This document shows positions 2,898-39,219 of a DNA stretch of 39,405 nt, one piece after another. A program made the position numbers and the translations under genes. Below the pieces are notes generated by a model. That model was not told where the DNA came from. It did no database searches and saw only the letters and a list, made by a program, of their open reading frames with translations. Numbering within the stretch: position 1 is the first letter of the stretch; each line of letters starts with the position of its first letter. The DNA comes from a virus. The stretch lies in the IMG/VR virus record IMGVR_UViG_3300048586_000935, positions 1 to 39,405 of that record; one strand, 5' to 3'.

Positions 2898-4130
2898 GTG
2901 CAGAAGGACTTCACCAAGTTCGCCAACCAGCGGTTTCTCAAGACCGTGGACTGGGAAGTCCTGGGCAAGCTGCTCATGGAGCATCAGGCAGGCCTCAAGG
3001 ATCTCGACCTGGCTGCCCTCCTGGCCGATGAGGCTGAGGGGCGGATGCGGATCACCGAGTACCTCCTCGGCTCGAAGGAGTCCTACCCGGACGGCCTCAT
3101 CCAGGACCTGCATCGCATCGTCCGCCTCGACAGCCCGACCGGGATGCGGTTGCTCCAGGAGGAAGCGGAGCGTCGGGGGGTCGTGATCATCGACCCGGCA
3201 GAGCGCCCGACCGCCACGCCGCGCGACTATGCCCTGGTCGCCTTCGTCGAATTCCCGGACGTGTTTCGGGAGGCCGAACACACCTCCGTCTTCATCGCGC
3301 CCACCAGCGTCACCGAATTCGACGCGGGTGAGGATGGGATTGCGGCCAGCGTGACCAACGAGGCGCTCGAGGCGCTGCGCGTTCGCGCGTCTGGGATTTT
3401 CGCCGCGGATCTGCGCGGGAAGTTCTGCCGCGTCCGCGACTACGTGGATGATGGCGAGCTTTGCATCGCCGTCCGCCATGGCGCGCCGCCAGTCTCGACC
3501 GAGGTCGTTCGCGGCGACGAAGACGAGGTGATCGGCTTCCAGGAAGTCGACACCGCGGTGATTTCCTTCGTCGAGGCCACCGGGCGCCTCACCGTTTGGG
3601 GCTGCGCGAAGAAGCGCCGCGGCGACCTGGCAGAAGCATTCGCCACTGAAATCCTGGGGCGCCCCGGGGTCTTCAAGGCAGCCAGCGCACAGAACCTCTA
3701 CACGCTGGCTCCGGCCGAGAACTCGAATGGTGCCTTCGCTTTCCGAATCGGTGATCTGGACCACATCGAACGGGTCGAAATCACGGAGGCGCAGGCCAAC
3801 CGCGTATCCACAAATGTCCGCACCGGGCGCGAGAAGACCCTGTTCTCGGTGCGGGTGAAGGATTCCGAGGGCAGCGCCCTGCGCCGGCTCCACGAGAGCC
3901 GGACCGATATCAGCTATGGAGACGATTCTTGGCGCCTCGACCACATCATCGCGCGCGTGGTGCTGAAGACGCCGGGCGGCCGCGCGCCCACGATCAGCGT
4001 CACGATCAAGCCGCCCGGATCGGCCAGCTTTCCGAGGGTCCGGCACAAGAAGCTGGTCATGGCGCTGCTCAAGCTGAATGCGCTGACGAATGACCGGCGG
4101 CCTATCGCAACGGCTCTGGCGGCTGAGTGA
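2898..4130 (+). CDS. unrecognised 410-aa protein, first gene of a two-gene module
   Basis: I do not recognise this family. The chosen start is GTG 2898 because AGGA (2887-2890) lies 7 nt upstream; an ATG at 2859 in the same frame has no ribosome-binding site and adds 13 unconvincing residues. The N-terminal 60 residues are helical (FTKFANQRFLKTVDWEVLGKLLMEH). A middle mixed region includes LVAFVEFPDVF and a short FCRVRDYVDDGELCIAVRHG. A C-terminal part has AFRIGDLDHIERVEITEAQ and a final beta-rich GRAPTISVTIKPPG ending in VRHKKLVMALLKLN. No transmembrane helix, signal peptide or obvious catalytic motif is seen. It overlaps the winged-helix gene by 41 bp, so the two are probably co-translated. 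Its place beside the integrase is where phages often carry defence or lysogeny-conversion genes. Confidence 0.8.
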   Translation: MQKDFTKFANQRFLKTVDWEVLGKLLMEHQAGLKDLDLAALLADEAEGRMRITEYLLGSKESYPDGLIQDLHRIVRLDSPTGMRLLQEEAERRGVVIIDPAERPTATPRDYALVAFVEFPDVFREAEHTSVFIAPTSVTEFDAGEDGIAASVTNEALEALRVRASGIFAADLRGKFCRVRDYVDDGELCIAVRHGAPPVSTEVVRGDEDEVIGFQEVDTAVISFVEATGRLTVWGCAKKRRGDLAEAFATEILGRPGVFKAASAQNLYTLAPAENSNGAFAFRIGDLDHIERVEITEAQANRVSTNVRTGREKTLFSVRVKDSEGSALRRLHESRTDISYGDDSWRLDHIIARVVLKTPGGRAPTISVTIKPPGSASFPRVRHKKLVMALLKLNALTNDRRPIATALAAE

Positions 4131-30054: not shown

Positions 30055-30098
30055 CAACCCTTCGTCACCGTCACAGCTTGGTGGTGGCGAAGGGGTTG
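30055..30098. terminator. hairpin between convergent capsid and toxin genes
   Basis: CAACCC-TTCG (30055-30064) pairs with CGAAGGGGTTG (30088-30098) with a one-base bulge. It lies between the rightward capsid gene (stop 30049) and overlaps the 3' end of the leftward toxin gene, so it could act on both strands. There is no long T-tract. Confidence 0.35.
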
Positions 30099-30490
30099 TG
30101 GACCGTGACGCCACGCCAGGTGAAACCGTGCTGCATGTCCTCGGAGAGCAGCATCCGACAGTCCGCCTGCGCGGCCGCCGCCAGCATGACGGAATCCCAC
30201 AGCGCCAGGCGATGGGTGGTGGCGATCTCCATCGCCTCCACCATCACGGCCGGCGTGGTGCCGATCACCGGATAGCTGTCGGACCAAGCCAGGACCGCGG
30301 TACGGGCATCGGCAGCTTCACGCCGTGCCTTGCGTGTCAGCACCACGAACAGCTCGCCGAGTGCCTGTGCGGGGACCAGCACATCCGCGCCGTCGAATCC
30401 ACGCAGGATATCGAGCGCGATGGCGCGCCGATCCTCGCCGTTCACGCCCTCGGCGTAGGCCAGGACATTGGTATCGAGCGCCAGACGCAT
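30071..30490 (-). CDS. PIN-domain toxin (VapC-like)
   Basis: A 139-residue PIN-domain ribonuclease. Acidic active-site residues are visible: D6 in LALDTNVLAYA, E46 in ALGELFVVL, D99 in LWDSVMLAAAAQADC, and E117/D118 in LLSEDM. It probably cleaves RNA when freed from its antitoxin. Start ATG 30490 lies 1 nt after the antitoxin stop, so the two are coupled. It is encoded against the direction of all surrounding late genes, directly after the capsid gene. Confidence 0.9.
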   Translation of the reverse strand: MRLALDTNVLAYAEGVNGEDRRAIALDILRGFDGADVLVPAQALGELFVVLTRKARREAADARTAVLAWSDSYPVIGTTPAVMVEAMEIATTHRLALWDSVMLAAAAQADCRMLLSEDMQHGFTWRGVTVHNPFATTKL

Positions 30491-30491
30491 C

Positions 30492-30734
30492 TCAGCGCTC
30501 GTACAGCTCGTCGCGGCTCCAGCGGCCGACATCGACCACGGGCTGCGCGGCAAGCCGTGCCAGCAGCTCGGCTCTCGCCGCGCCGCGTGCGGCATCGGCG
30601 GCGTCACAGGGCACGAGCCGCGCCACGGGCTTGCCGTGGGCGGTCACGACGAAGCTGCGGCCCTCCTCCCTGACCTCACGGAGCAGGCGGGAGAAGGCGC
30701 GATTAGCGTCGGCGGCGGAGATGGCGGTGTCCAT
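30492..30734 (-). CDS. Phd/YefM-type antitoxin
   Basis: An 80-residue antitoxin. The N-terminal MDTAISAADANRAFSRLLREVREEGRSFVVTAHGKPVARLVP is the Phd/YefM DNA-binding fold. The C-terminal RAELLARLAAQPVVDVGRWSRDELYER would neutralise the PIN toxin. The ATG at 30734 coincides with the predicted +1, so the mRNA may be leaderless; the GAGGG lies directly against the start codon. It likely represses its own promoter through the inverted repeats at 30745-30765. Confidence 0.9.
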   Translation of the reverse strand: MDTAISAADANRAFSRLLREVREEGRSFVVTAHGKPVARLVPCDAADAARGAARAELLARLAAQPVVDVGRWSRDELYER

Positions 30735-33757: not shown

Positions 33758-34711
33758 ATGCCCCGTGCCATCGGCGCGAATTGCCGCCTGCTCATGCTGC
33801 CCGAAATCACCTATGGCACCGCGCCCGGCAGCAACTGGCGGCGCATGCCGTTCCTCTCCTGCGATCTCGGTGCGGAGCAGCCGTTGCTCGATGCCGACGT
33901 CATCGGCGTCGGCAGCAACCGCGATCCGGCCGCGCCCTTCCTCGACACGGTGACGGTCGCCGGGCAGGCGGTGGTGCCGGTGGACCTGATCAACATCGGC
34001 CACTGGCTGCGGCTGCTGCTCGGCGCGCCGACCACCACCGGCACCACCAACTTCATCCACACCTTCGGCTCGGGTGCGGCCTCGCTGCCCAGCAACGCGA
34101 TGGAGATCGGCTATCCGGATGTGCCGAGCTTCGACGTCTGCACCGGCGTCCGTGCCGACACACTGGAGATGGACTTCACGCCGACCGGCGCTGCGACCGC
34201 GACCTTCGGGCTGTTGGGCCAGGGCTCGGCGCGCACTGGTGCCACGTCAGGCGGCACGCCGACCAGCGCCGCCTACACCGCCTTCAACAAGGCGCAGGGA
34301 TCGATCACTCGCAGCGGTTCTGCGCTTGCCCAGGTCACTGGTGCGCGGCTCACCTACGCCAATGGGATGGAGGCGGTGCGCACCATCCGCGCCGATCGCC
34401 GCGTCGAGGGCGTGGATCCCGGTATTGCGCGCTGCACGGGCCAGATCACCGTCCGCTTCGAGAACACCACGCTGCTCGCCCAGGCACAGGTCGGCACCTC
34501 TGCGGAATTCGCCATGGCCTTCACCATCGATGCCAACCGCAGCCTCACCATCACACTGCACGAGGTCTATCTGGCGCTGGCGAAGACGCCGATCGAGGGG
34601 CCGGCTGGCGTCGAGGCCAGCTTTGATTTCCGCGCCGCGTTCAACGCGACGGCGACGCGCATGATGACCGCGGTGCTGCGGAACCAGCAGGCCGGGACGG
34701 AGTACGCGTGA
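33758..34711 (+). CDS. major tail tube protein
   Basis: A 317-residue tail tube protein. The N-terminal half (LMLPEITYGTAPGSNWRRMPFLSCDLGAEQPLLDADVIG, TVTVAGQAVVPVDLINIGHWLRLLLGAP) and the C-terminal half (GQITVRFENTTLLAQAQVGTSAEFAMAFT, ITLHEVYLALAKTPIEGPAGVEASFDFRAAF) have the beta-rich pattern of siphophage tube subunits that stack into the tail tube. CCAGGAGAAAGCCC precedes the ATG. It should be followed by tail chaperone genes, but a MerR/glutaredoxin cassette intervenes. Confidence 0.85.
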   Translation: MPRAIGANCRLLMLPEITYGTAPGSNWRRMPFLSCDLGAEQPLLDADVIGVGSNRDPAAPFLDTVTVAGQAVVPVDLINIGHWLRLLLGAPTTTGTTNFIHTFGSGAASLPSNAMEIGYPDVPSFDVCTGVRADTLEMDFTPTGAATATFGLLGQGSARTGATSGGTPTSAAYTAFNKAQGSITRSGSALAQVTGARLTYANGMEAVRTIRADRRVEGVDPGIARCTGQITVRFENTTLLAQAQVGTSAEFAMAFTIDANRSLTITLHEVYLALAKTPIEGPAGVEASFDFRAAFNATATRMMTAVLRNQQAGTEYA

Positions 34712-34774
34712 ATCTGGTCGGTGATGATGCGAGTTTGCGTTGGGCGGAAGGATGACAGGGGTGCCACGCCCGTC

Positions 34775-35188
34775 TCAAACGTCGAAGGAAGCCAAGATTG
34801 GGCACGGCCCGGCGCTTCCCTCGGCACACTCCCGCGCCAATCGTCGGAGGGCGTCTCGGGCGCGCTGAAGATCGGCAATCTTGCGGTCGAGCGCCTCGAT
34901 GCGTGCCTTCGAAAGCTCGCGGGCGCGGCTGCGATCCTCGCCGGCATCCAGGTCTAAAAGCTCCCTGATCTCCTCCAACGTGAATCCCGCCGCTTGTGCC
35001 TGCCGGATGAAGCGAAGGCGCCGTAGATCGGCTTCGTCGTAGTGCCGGATCCCATCTCCTCGCACAGGCGTCCTGAGCAGCTCCTTGCGCTGGTAGAAGC
35101 GGATCGTCTCGACGCCCACGCCACCAGCGCCGGCAAGCTCGCCAATGGTCAGCGATCCGGCCCGTTTGGGCTTGCCGTCGGAAGGCAA
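34775..35188 (-). CDS. MerR-family regulator (mercury MerR-like)
   Basis: A 137-residue regulator if started at TTG 35188. The winged HTH is LTIGELAGAGGVGVETIRFYQRKELL, followed by GIRHYDEADLRRLRFIRQAQAAGFTLEEIRELLDL and the dimerisation helix. The C-terminus ECAEGSAGPCPILASFD keeps two cysteines in the spacing of the mercury-binding Cys117 and Cys126 of MerR, but the third (Cys82 region) is replaced by DRSRA. The inducer may therefore be another thiophilic metal or oxidant. An upstream ATG at 35212 lies inside the operator, so TTG with AAGGG about 6 nt upstream is preferred. It is divergent from the glutaredoxin gene it probably controls. Confidence 0.85.
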   Translation of the reverse strand: MPSDGKPKRAGSLTIGELAGAGGVGVETIRFYQRKELLRTPVRGDGIRHYDEADLRRLRFIRQAQAAGFTLEEIRELLDLDAGEDRSRARELSKARIEALDRKIADLQRARDALRRLARECAEGSAGPCPILASFDV

Positions 35189-35197
35189 TCGAGACCC

Positions 35198-35229
35198 TTG
35201 ACTCTGTACCATGGTACGGAACCTATATT
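35198..35229 (+). promoter_or_regulatory. mer-type promoter/operator
   Basis: TTGACT (35198-35203) is followed by a perfect 12-bp palindrome GTACCATGGTAC (35206-35217), then GGAA and a -10 of CTATAT (35223-35228) after a 19-bp spacer, or TATATT after 20. A 19-20-bp spacer with a central palindrome is characteristic of promoters untwisted by MerR proteins, and the sequence closely follows the classical mer operator. It drives the gene at 35260. Confidence 0.8.
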
Positions 35230-35259
35230 CGGGCCGACCGGATTTCAAGGAGCCCGAAC

Positions 35260-36072
35260 ATGTCGGCCACAACCACCCTCTCACCTGCGTCGAGCCGCCC
35301 AGCGTTGGCGAAAACGGCTGTCATCCACCGCATGGTGATGGCGCACCACACCTGCCCCTACGGCCTGAAGGCCAAGGACCTACTCGAACGCTCCGGCTAC
35401 GAGGTCGAGGACCGCCACCTCACCACGCGCGAGGCGACTGACGCCTTCAAAGCAGAGCACGGCGTGGCGACGACGCCCCAGGTCTTCATCGGAGGCGAGC
35501 GCGTCGGCGGCTACGACGATCTGCGCCGGTTCCTCAGCAAGCCCGTGGCGGACCCAAAGGCGACGAGTTACCGCCCAGTCGTCGCGCTATTCGCCATGAC
35601 CGCCCTAATGGCCATGGCGGCGAGCTACGCCGTGACGGGGAGCGCCTTCACCCTCCGCGCGGCGGAGTGGTTCATCGGCTTCTCGATGGTCGTGCTGGCG
35701 CTGCTGAAGCTCCAGAACATCGAGAGTTTCTCGACGATGTTTCTGAACTACGACCTGCTCGCCAAGCGGTGGGTGCCCTACTCCTACATCTACCCCTTCG
35801 CTGAGGGCTTAGCCGGAGTACTGATGGTCGCGAGTGCACTCACTTGGCTGTCGGTGCCGATCGCACTCTTCATCGGAACCATCGGCGCGGTCTCGGTATT
35901 CAAGGCCGTCTACATCGACCGGCGCGAGCTGAAGTGCGCCTGCGTCGGCGGGTCGAGCAATGTCCCCCTCGGCTTCATCTCCCTGACCGAGAACCTGATG
36001 ATGGTCGCCATGGCGCTGTGGATGGCGCTTGCCGCGTTCGGCCTCCCGGCCGGCGCGGGCCATGCGATGTAA
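35260..36072 (+). CDS. glutaredoxin-MauE/DoxX membrane fusion protein
   Basis: A 270-residue inner-membrane redox protein. Residues of about 20-95 form a glutaredoxin domain with a monothiol active site TCPYG (C32) and the TTPQVFIGGERVGGYDDL glutathione-site region. The rest is a MauE/DoxX-like membrane part with four hydrophobic stretches (about 106-126, 134-152, 178-196, 199-216) plus a last one near 240-262, and a conserved CxC (C226, C228) in LKCACVGG. Similar fusions occur beside MerR regulators and are linked to metal or thiol stress. The start has AAGGAG 7 nt upstream, and the mer-like operator lies just before. It is cargo between tail tube and tail chaperone genes. Confidence 0.85.
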   Translation: MSATTTLSPASSRPALAKTAVIHRMVMAHHTCPYGLKAKDLLERSGYEVEDRHLTTREATDAFKAEHGVATTPQVFIGGERVGGYDDLRRFLSKPVADPKATSYRPVVALFAMTALMAMAASYAVTGSAFTLRAAEWFIGFSMVVLALLKLQNIESFSTMFLNYDLLAKRWVPYSYIYPFAEGLAGVLMVASALTWLSVPIALFIGTIGAVSVFKAVYIDRRELKCACVGGSSNVPLGFISLTENLMMVAMALWMALAAFGLPAGAGHAM

Positions 36073-36124
36073 GCCGGCGCTCCGCTTCCAGGAGTTCACC
36101 TCTTTTTTCCAGTCAAATGGGCCT

Positions 36125-36143
36125 GCCCGGGCTTTCCCCGGGC
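36125..36143 (+). terminator. hairpin downstream of the glutaredoxin gene
   Basis: GCCCGGG (36125-36131) and CCCGGGC (36137-36143) form a perfect 7-bp stem with a CTTTC loop, about 52 nt after the stop of the glutaredoxin gene. An outer GCCT/AGGC pair may extend it. No T-tract follows. Confidence 0.45.
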
Positions 36144-36187
36144 GGCCGCAGGCTCGGCCTTCACTTCTTGTCGTCGCAAAGGGGCAA

Positions 36188-36241
36188 GTGATGATCGCCC
36201 TCGACGACACCATCGCGAACATCGCCCTGCCAAGCACCTAG
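36188..36241 (+). pseudogene. 5' remnant of an MFS (DHA2-type) transporter
   Basis: The frame from GTG 36188 reads VMIALDDTIANIALPST and then stops. This resembles the first membrane helix of EmrB/QacA-type drug transporters, where a LD-x-TIVN-x-ALP signature is conserved. The rest of a transporter is absent. It lies at the end of the MerR/glutaredoxin cassette and suggests that a longer resistance island was truncated when it entered the phage. The match is short (17 residues). Confidence 0.45.
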
Positions 36242-36338
36242 GCCTTGGTTTTCAGGTAGGGCCGGGCGCTTACGCGGCCGACGACATCGCTGGGTGCGGC
36301 GGCTGTCCCGGCCACACAATCACGCAACGGAGAACCAC

Positions 36339-36716
36339 ATGCTCACCCTCGACCTCCCGGTCGAGCCGTACTGGCTCGACCTGCCCCGCGGTGTCCGCGT
36401 GGAAATCCGCCCCGTCACCACCGCCGTCATGGCCGCCGCCCAGGCCGGCTCCGCCCGCCGCCTCGGCGCGCTGCGGGCCGCCGAGGCCGATCTCGATCCC
36501 GACATGGCGCGCGGCCTGGCCTTCGCCTTCCTGGTCAAGGCGCTCGCCCGCCACGCCGTCACCGCCTGGGAGGGCGTGGGCGACGCCGCCGGCAAGCCAC
36601 TGCCGCTCTCGCCTGAGGCCGTCGAGCGCCTGATGGACATGGACGAGATGGCCGCCGCCTTCTGGGACCGCGCCACCGGTCCGGTCGCCGCAGTGGCGCT
36701 GGAGGGAAACGGCTAA
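36339..36716 (+). CDS. tail assembly chaperone (gpG-like)
   Basis: A 125-residue chaperone, equivalent in position to lambda gpG, between the tail tube and tape measure genes. It begins LTLDLPVEPYWLDLPRGVRVEIRPVTTAVMAAAQAGSARRLGAL and continues with helices (GLAFAFLVKALARHAVTAWEGV; EAVERLMDMDEMAAAFWDRATGP). GGAG (36329-36332) supports ATG 36339. It stops at TAA 36714, but six bases earlier a GGGAAAC slippery heptamer in the zero frame can redirect ribosomes into the overlapping frame to make the longer G-T form. Confidence 0.85.
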   Translation: MLTLDLPVEPYWLDLPRGVRVEIRPVTTAVMAAAQAGSARRLGALRAAEADLDPDMARGLAFAFLVKALARHAVTAWEGVGDAAGKPLPLSPEAVERLMDMDEMAAAFWDRATGPVAAVALEGNG

Positions 36717-36750
36717 GGGCCCGGGCCGAATGGCATTTCGGCCAGGGCCC
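36704..36750 (+). promoter_or_regulatory. -1 programmed frameshift signal
   Basis: The heptamer G GGA AAC (36704-36710) is in the zero frame of the chaperone gene. It is followed by a 6-nt spacer containing the stop codon, then a hairpin: GGGCCC (36717-36722) pairs with GGGCCC (36745-36750), and GGCCGAA (36724-36730) with TTCGGCC (36737-36743), with one G/A mismatch between the two helices and a 6-nt loop. This is the classic heptamer-spacer-stem arrangement of the lambda G/GT type. Confidence 0.85.
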
Positions 36751-37033
36751 TGATTACTGCCGCGGCTGCGCGGCGCTCGATCGCGACTGCGGCCTCGCCT
36801 GCCCCTATGCCGCCCACGCGCCCGCCAGCGTCGAGGGCGCCGCATGCTGGGCCGCCGGCACCACCTGCGCCACGGCGACCATGGCGGGCCTCGATCTCTA
36901 CATGCCGGCCGCGCTCGCCATCGCCCGCGAGATGGGCGCCTCCGGCTGGGCCGCCGCGGAACTGCTGCTCGCCATGCGCATGGGCCTCGCCGCTGGCAGC
37001 GCCGCGCGGCGCACTGAGTCCCCCGGACCCTGA
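36710..37033 (+). CDS. tail chaperone extension (GT-like), made by -1 frameshift
   Basis: The -1 frame continues from the slippery site for 107 codons to TGA 37031-37033, giving a 231-residue fusion with the upstream 124 residues. It has no start codon of its own near the beginning, which supports expression by frameshift. The extension starts RLRARAEWHFGQGPDYCRGC and holds six cysteines (including CRGC, RDC, LAC), then MAGLDLYMPAALAIAREMGASGWAAAELLLAMRMG. In lambda the T domain links chaperone to tape measure and tube; the Cys-rich part may bind metal. It ends 29 nt before the tape measure gene. Confidence 0.8.
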   Translation, partial: RLRARAEWHFGQGPDYCRGCAALDRDCGLACPYAAHAPASVEGAACWAAGTTCATATMAGLDLYMPAALAIAREMGASGWAAAELLLAMRMGLAAGSAARRTESPGP

Positions 37034-37062: not shown

Positions 37063-39219
37063 ATGGCTGACGCCACCCGCCGCGTCTCGGTCCGGCTGTC
37101 GCTGGACGACGCCGCCCGCGTCAAGCAGGAGCTGCGCGAGGTCGGCGAGACCGGCCAGCGATCCCTGGAGCGCATCCAGGGTGGGGCCGACCGCGCCTCC
37201 CGCGCGCTGGACCTGCTCGACGTCGCGGTGCGCGGCGTGCAGATCGCCGGTCTCGCTGCCGGGCTGCGCGCCGTCGTGGTGGCGGGTGATGCGCTCACCC
37301 AGTCCATGGGCCGGCTCAACACCGCGCTTGGTTCGGTCGAGCGCGCCGGTGAGATCTACGACCGGCTATATCGCGACAGCCTGCAGACCGGCGTTGCAGT
37401 CCGCGAGAGCGTGGACGCCTTCGCCCGATTCTCAATCGCCGCCCGCGAGATCGGCGCCACCTCCGACCAGGTCGCCACCCTGGTGGGCGGGCTGCAGCGC
37501 ATCGCCATCGCCTCCGGTGCCAGCCAGCAGGAAATCGCCTCCTCCACTCAGCAGCTCGCCCAGGCGCTGGCCTCGGGCACGCTGCAGGGCGACGAGCTCC
37601 GCTCCATCCTGGAAGGCCTGCCCACACTGGCGCAGGCGCTGGCGCGAGAGCTCGGCATCTCCATCGGCGAGCTGCGCAAGCTCGGCTCCGAGGGCAAGCT
37701 CACCGCGGACACGGTGTTCCCGGCGCTGCTGCGCGCCGTCGAGCGGCTGAATGGCGAGTTCGAACGCGCGCCGCTCTCCGTCGGCCGCGCCTTCGGCCAG
37801 CTCACCGCCGCAGCCGACCAGTTCCTCGCCCGGCTCGACCAAGCGATCGGCCTGTCCAACGCCCTGGCACGCGCACTTTCCGGTGCCGCGCGCGTATTGG
37901 ACGGCGTGCGCCGCGGCTCCGGCCTGCTGCTGCCCTCCGAGCAGGAGGCCGATCGTCGCGCGCAGGCCGAGGCGCTGCGTGCGCAGATTGCCCGCCTCGA
38001 GGCGGAGAGCGACGGTCGCGACAGCCTGCGCTCCCAGCCCCGCCGTGGTTCGATCCGCGGCGGGCTGGTCGGCACCGCCCAGCAGCAGGCGGGCGTGGAT
38101 CGCGCCGCGCGGCTGGAGGAGCTGCGCCGCCAGTATGCGGAACTGCAGGAGGAGATCACCCGCGGCGAGCAGGCTGCCGGCGAGCGCCAGCGCACAGAGC
38201 AGGAGACGGCAGCCGGCCAAGCCGCCGATGCACGCCGTCGCCGCACCGCCGCGGATGCCGAGGAACTCCGCAAGGCGCTCGACGACCGCTTTCGGATCAA
38301 CAGCGAATACGACGACCGCGTCCGCCGCCTGCGCGAGGCCGAGGCCGCTGGCGGCATCACCGCCGCGGATCGCACCCGCCTCGAAACCCTGGCGCTGCGC
38401 GAACGCGACGAGGCGCTTCGCCGCATCGAGGGCACCACCCGACGTGTCGCCGCCATCCCGCGCCCCGACCGCGAGGCAGAGCGCGAGATCAACGACATCA
38501 TCCGCGAGCGCGAGCGGCTGATCCAGAACAACGAGAACGCCCAGGAGCGCTACACCCGGCGCCTCGAAACCCTCGGCCGGCTGGTGGAGCGCTCCGAGCG
38601 CATCGGCCAGCCGATCCCCGACGAGACGATCTCGCGTGAGGCCAATGCCGCGCTGGAGGAGCTGGAGCGCAGCCAGCAGCGCGTCCAGCAGGCGACCGAG
38701 CGTACCAGCAACACGGCGCGCGAGCTGGGCCTGACCTTCTCCTCTGCCTTCGAGGACGCGATCATCAAGGGCGAGAATTTCTCGAAGGTCCTCCAGGGCA
38801 TCCTGCAGGACATCGCCCGCATCGTGGTCCGGCGCACCATCACCGAACCGCTGGGCACGGCGGTCACCTCCAGCCTGAGTGGCTTTGACTTCGGCTCGAT
38901 CTTCTCGGGGATTGGCTCGGCGCTGGGCGGGCTGTTCCGAGCCGAGGGCGGGCCGGTGGCGGGTGGCCAGCCCTATATCGTCGGCGAGCGCGGCCCCGAA
39001 TGGTTCGTGCCGAGCTCCGCAGGCACGGTGCTGCCCAACGGCATGGCGCCGGGTGGGCCCGTGATCAACCAGAGCATCACCATCGATGCGCGCGGCGCCG
39101 ATGCCGGTGTCGAGGCGCGGCTGCGCGTGCTCTCGGCACAGATTGTCCGCCAGGCCAGTGCGGCGACGCTCGACGCCATCCGCCGCGGCGGCAGCGCCAC
39201 CTCCATCGTGCGGGGATAG
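37063..39219 (+). CDS. tape measure protein
   Basis: A 718-residue tape measure protein. The N-terminal part has helical segments (RVSVRLSLDDAARVKQELREVGETGQRSLERI) and a tape-measure domain (SMGRLNTALGSVERAGEIYDRLYRDSLQTGVAVRESVDAFARFSIAAREIGATSDQVATLVGG, GDELRSILEGLPTLAQALARELGISIGELRKLGSEGKLTADTVFPALL). A coiled-coil-rich middle (RAQAEALRAQIARLEAES; RRQYAELQEEITRGEQAAGERQR) follows. The C-terminal FRAEGGPVAGGQPYIVGERGPEWFVPSSAGTVLPNG is typical of tail tape measures. Using the usual ~0.15 nm per residue, the tail would be about 110 nm (inference). Confidence 0.9.
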   Translation: MADATRRVSVRLSLDDAARVKQELREVGETGQRSLERIQGGADRASRALDLLDVAVRGVQIAGLAAGLRAVVVAGDALTQSMGRLNTALGSVERAGEIYDRLYRDSLQTGVAVRESVDAFARFSIAAREIGATSDQVATLVGGLQRIAIASGASQQEIASSTQQLAQALASGTLQGDELRSILEGLPTLAQALARELGISIGELRKLGSEGKLTADTVFPALLRAVERLNGEFERAPLSVGRAFGQLTAAADQFLARLDQAIGLSNALARALSGAARVLDGVRRGSGLLLPSEQEADRRAQAEALRAQIARLEAESDGRDSLRSQPRRGSIRGGLVGTAQQQAGVDRAARLEELRRQYAELQEEITRGEQAAGERQRTEQETAAGQAADARRRRTAADAEELRKALDDRFRINSEYDDRVRRLREAEAAGGITAADRTRLETLALRERDEALRRIEGTTRRVAAIPRPDREAEREINDIIRERERLIQNNENAQERYTRRLETLGRLVERSERIGQPIPDETISREANAALEELERSQQRVQQATERTSNTARELGLTFSSAFEDAIIKGENFSKVLQGILQDIARIVVRRTITEPLGTAVTSSLSGFDFGSIFSGIGSALGGLFRAEGGPVAGGQPYIVGERGPEWFVPSSAGTVLPNGMAPGGPVINQSITIDARGADAGVEARLRVLSAQIVRQASAATLDAIRRGGSATSIVRG

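Follow-up and report, generated by a model that had tools for sequence, protein, structure and literature searches.

How is the 107-codon reading frame between a tail-chaperone gene and the tape measure gene of a viral genome translated, when it has no start codon of its own? The locus lies in IMG/VR record IMGVR_UViG_3300048586_000935, of which we analyzed the whole stretch of 39,405 nucleotides (here called the window). A first-pass annotation, made from the letters alone, had read it as a lambda-type -1 frameshift that fuses two tail chaperone frames. Our analysis supports this reading and makes it very probable that the tail-chaperone gene at this locus, which belongs to a temperate siphophage of Acetobacteraceae, contains a programmed -1 ribosomal frameshift of the lambda G/GT kind. 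The relevant features, in order along the window, are as follows.

33758 to 34711, plus strand: tail tube protein (Pfam Phage_tube_2, 5.7e-49)
36339 to 36716, plus strand: gene G, the zero-frame tail assembly chaperone of 125 aa (PHROG 313 match and AF2 model)
36704 to 36710, plus strand: slippery heptamer G_GGA_AAC (register read directly; conserved codon position)
36710 to 37033, plus strand: T domain in the -1 frame, 107 codons followed by TGA, without a start codon of its own (AF2 model, pLDDT 92.9)
36714 to 36716, plus strand: zero-frame stop TAA, one codon past the heptamer (relatives have TAA or TGA)
36716 to 36751, plus strand: predicted stimulatory hairpin of 14 pairs with one mismatch and a 6-nt loop (folding and synonymous-codon shuffles)
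36758 to 36802, plus strand: Cys4 module, codons C19, C22, C29, and C33 of T (C-x2-C-x6-C-x3-C-P)
37063 to 39219, plus strand: tape measure protein (Pfam TMP_3, 1.2e-50)

Checked base by base, the 3' end of G reads ...GAG GGA AAC GGC TAA. GGGAAAC at 36704 to 36710 sits in the X_XXY_YYZ register that tandem -1 slippage needs, and GGCTAA forms a 6-nt spacer between the heptamer and the stem. The -1 frame stays open up to the TGA at 37031 to 37033, which gives 107 codons after the slip and a predicted fusion of 231 aa (124 + 107). The tape measure ATG at 37063 follows 29 nt past the end of the T frame. The first-pass annotation had described the same zero-frame heptamer, the spacer with its stop, and the start-less -1 frame with its distance to the tape measure gene, all of them correctly; its 13-bp hairpin with a single mismatch also holds, and folding adds one A-U pair. 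The gene order is tail tube, G/GT, and tape measure, with 1.6 kb of cargo splitting the tube gene from G. GGGAAAC occurs once in the window against about 2.2 occurrences expected by chance, which gives the heptamer by itself no significance; what is significant is its position and conservation, not its frequency. A Shine-Dalgarno-like GGAGG overlapping the heptamer was considered and set aside, as it is too close for a standard stimulator.

The conservation of the slip site was followed in three scans. Searching viral contigs with the T sequence yielded 80 loci, and GGGAAAC, then one codon, and then a TAA or TGA stop were found in 79 of 81 loci (window included). Two wider scans started from an alignment with Rhodobacter, Nostoc, and gut phages among its members and required only the pattern WHFGxG..Y. 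This pattern holds neither the heptamer nor the cysteines, and its residues are conserved by ascertainment in the relatives so collected. Over all scans, an in-register slippery heptamer lay exactly 27 nt 5' of the Trp codon in 277 of 280 distinct loci, and the open -1 frame was kept along with it, so that the frameshift reading survives a check for loss of either element in relatives. The heptamer was GGGAAAC in 163 loci, AAAAAAC in 78, AAAAAAA in 22, and AAAAAAG in 14; the type varies between loci yet stays slippery, and the 280 loci are not independent lineages. All 163 GGGAAAC members kept GGA, a codon that makes up 5.9% of their other Gly codons. The zero-frame stop lies 20 to 57 codons past the heptamer in distant relatives and one codon past it in the Acetobacteraceae clade, where the early stop results in a shorter G. 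For the Rhodobacter phage RcKemmy, the database record already joins the two frames. So conserved a signal is very unlikely to have arisen by chance.

Three of the 280 loci were exceptions. In L025 (positions 3001 to 3030), GTGAAAC puts a stop inside the heptamer, and L022 (positions 1 to 110) carries T without G and is apparently rearranged; both are likely dead prophages. Among the distant loci, only L235 has an intact T without a standard heptamer. It has an ACAAAAC-type sequence (GGAACAAAACG at the site) and may use a different shift site.

A 60-nt RNA of the window with the hairpin had a folding energy of -34.4 kcal/mol and, relative to dinucleotide-shuffled sequences, a z value of -2.7. 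We also kept the T protein fixed, redrew its codons from local usage, and folded the 42-nt stretch. The window hairpin was more stable than these synonymous-codon shuffles (z = -3.1; p = 0.003), and mean z values were -2.45 for 26 near loci and -2.30 for 40 distant loci, with p < 0.05 in 48 of the 66. The hairpin was also lower in energy than other T-frame windows in 98% of loci. Column-by-column covariation was weak (22 of 500 shuffles reached the score in 36 close sequences), and RNAalifold did not return the hairpin from 36 close sequences. Both outcomes are explained by relatives shifting the register of the stem: in a group with Arg in place of Gln at T residue 14 (CGC-GGG-CCC), the stem pairs one base out of register. 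As these two analyses are unsupportive by themselves, the synonymous-shuffle test was used instead.

The zero-frame product belongs to the tail assembly chaperone family (PHROG 313, HK97 chaperone-like). G matched PHROG 313 with an E value of 1.6e-13, and its AF2 model had a pLDDT of 95.6. The best two solved folds were the HK97 chaperone 2ob9 (Z = 5.3) and YqbN 3klu (Z = 5.0), at about 8 to 13% identity to G; in absolute terms, this similarity of fold is weak (Foldseek E value of 0.28; Z of 5.3). We take YqbN to be a phage-element chaperone as well.

T was also modeled with confidence (pLDDT of 92.9). Sequence and fold searches of the PDB gave chance matches only and no solved structure resembling T. 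Among named viral models, a tape measure chaperone of a Serratia phage scored best, without significance (E = 0.88). A tblastn search of named phages with the window T as the query gave no match, and the link to them came through G. The residues invariant in a 68-row diverse alignment were K2, W10, H11, F12, G13, G15, Y18, C19, C22, C29, and C33. Invariance of W, H, F, G, G, and Y stems partly from their being search terms, and K2 falls within the slip site, where it is the heptamer rather than the protein that is conserved; the cysteines lie outside the wide pattern. All 277 loci have the four cysteines, with variable spacing (C-x2-C-x3..6-C-x2..16-C), including 22 loci that a narrow pattern missed, in which the third gap is longer. 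The first-pass annotation had pointed to a Cys-rich T domain with six cysteines. All six are present in the window, but only four are conserved, as T residues 48 and 55 vary in relatives. Their number, which it had called unusual for a chaperone extension, is so when compared with lambda T, which has no cysteine, but is normal within the T family. The Cys4 module is most likely a compact, zinc-binding first part of T. Metal binding is suggested by the four invariant cysteines, and the module would then serve as a structural zinc site that stabilizes the start of T beside the junction.

Other accounts of the two frames also have to be considered. T could be a separate protein made from its own start by reinitiation after the G stop, with no fusion. 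The G stop does overlap the T frame, and Nostoc and Synechococcus phage records annotate a small separate coding sequence here. However, in 249 of the 277 loci the T frame has no ATG, GTG, or TTG between a point 90 nt 5' of the heptamer and the Trp codon, and the median position of the first usable start is T residue 60. Start-to-stop calls lose at least the first conserved Cys in 274 of 277 cases, much as the first-pass annotation had expected of conventional gene calling, and separate translation would leave the conserved heptamer and hairpin unexplained. We give this account very little credence, and T probably cannot easily be made by a route other than frameshifting. The frame might instead change by transcriptional slippage on an A/G run, and runs of 7 to 8 A do occur in some relatives. 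The run is only GGGAAA in the window and in 162 further loci, too short for typical polymerase slippage, and the hairpin about 5 to 7 nt downstream is the usual ribosomal signal, so that a transcriptional origin is scarcely credible. That the two frames reflect a sequencing error or a decaying gene, as the stop in the L025 heptamer and the missing G of L022 would allow, has next to no chance of being true, since 277 distinct loci, as well as records of cultured phages, show the same intact arrangement.

A further alternative accepts the frameshift and concerns the cysteines, which could hold an iron-sulfur cluster or disulfides instead of zinc. Three members show a very weak similarity to Fer4_4 (E = 0.04), and the spacing in the window clade ends in C-x3-C-P. 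The wide variation in spacing (x3-6 and x2-16), however, suits structural zinc sites better, and reliance on disulfides is unlikely for a protein in the cytoplasm. We regard this alternative as less probable than zinc.

The programmed frameshift can be compared with that of lambda (J02459), where the tape measure protein is bound by many copies of G and few of GT, and the major tail protein by T (PMC5009743). The two share the order of tail tube, G, T, and tape measure and a GGGAAA-type heptamer for the -1 slip, close to the 3' end of G (PMC5009743). They differ in the heptamer itself (GGGAAAG in lambda and GGGAAAC in the window), in the strong hairpin 5 to 6 nt downstream of it in the window, and in the Cys4 module of T. 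A comparison of lambda T with window-family T profiles was insignificant (hhalign probability of 3% over 18 columns). The GGGAAAC slip site is not itself new, as G_GGA_AAC is listed for the haloarchaeal virus HCTV-1 (PMC5009743), which has it in common with the window but infects an archaeal host. The Rhodobacter phages RcKemmy, RcOceanus, and others have homologous G (34 to 36%) and T (about 35%) and the same heptamer, hairpin, and Cys4 as the window. Their zero frame continues past the heptamer, whereas that of the window stops after one codon, and the Cys spacing of their T is shorter. The usual frameshift in such phages has been noted, with the cysteines unmentioned (PMC8601537).

We infer from these signals that frameshifting occurs and that it is the less frequent outcome. 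Most ribosomes would terminate at the TAA at 36714 and yield the 125-aa G chaperone, while a minority, paused by the hairpin, would slip from GGA-AAC to GGG-AAA and read 107 more codons, which would make GT a protein of 231 aa. On the lambda model, the tape measure protein would be coated by the G part, and the rarer GT would use its T part to recruit the tail tube protein; G and GT would then both leave.

Close relatives on genome contigs belong mainly to Acetobacteraceae (Roseomonas, Falsiroseomonas, Neoroseomonas, Siccirubricoccus, and others), and these closest relatives in sequenced genomes point to a host in this family. Genomes G002, G003, G004, G006, and G008 carry four to six T copies per Acetobacteraceae genome, probably as multiple prophages of the same type. 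The junction between the tail tube gene and G (34712 to 36338 in the window; loci L002 to L161) holds 0.67 to 4.25 kb of cargo in 103 of 111 close relatives, which falls into 63 nucleotide clusters. Six close relatives have no cargo (TAATG overlap), and the junction measures at most 432 nt in 88 distant relatives. In the Acetobacteraceae relatives, this junction is a hot spot of accessory and defense genes. Among the cargo genes are a type III-A retron pair (L090), Septu PtuA (L094), and GmrSD (L072), along with methyltransferase-like proteins, transporters, regulators, and metabolic genes. The hot spot is similar to those of P2 and P4 (PMC9122126) but sits inside the tail operon. The cargo of the window, which is possibly related to metal or redox functions, and a toxin-antitoxin pair elsewhere in the window are as follows.

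30071 to 30734, minus strand: toxin-antitoxin pair (PIN-domain toxin, Phd/YefM antitoxin), flanked by the genes for the major capsid and cement proteins and on the opposite strand to them
34775 to 35284, minus strand: MerR-family regulator of the window cargo, divergent from the glutaredoxin-MauE gene
35260 to 36072, plus strand: glutaredoxin-MauE membrane protein of the window cargo

T also bears on existing protein families. Among 66 diverse T members, 60 matched DUF7697 (PF24752), 51 matched PHROG 11212, and 17 weakly matched DUF1799; the window T itself falls below the curated cutoff of DUF7697, although most relatives match. DUF7697 and PHROG 11212 span only about T residues 58 to 104, without the Cys4 module, and the DUF7697 match starts at about residues 58 to 73; neither family carries a functional assignment. 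Because they start near the first in-frame start codon, the two families look like truncated T calls, and they would be products of gene calling that is blind to the frameshift. No mention of DUF7697 was found in the literature searched. In VarioGold, a DUF1799 protein lies between the chaperone and the tape measure (PMC9658991), which is the position of T.

On balance, we lean slightly toward a broader reading, in which a large chaperone subfamily makes a Cys4-containing T, needed for tail tube recruitment, only by frameshifting, while databases hold a truncated C-terminal half. Such a subfamily would cover hundreds of loci in Acetobacteraceae, Rhodobacter, cyanobacterial, and gut phages. If so, the function and metal site of T would have gone unseen because just the truncated half is in the databases. 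The mechanism is textbook; what would be gained is a role for DUF7697 and PHROG 11212, together with a search definition for the full domain (a heptamer 27 nt before WHFGxG..YC..C). Why T would need a metal site here, which lambda lacks, is a question accessible in cultured Rhodobacter phages.
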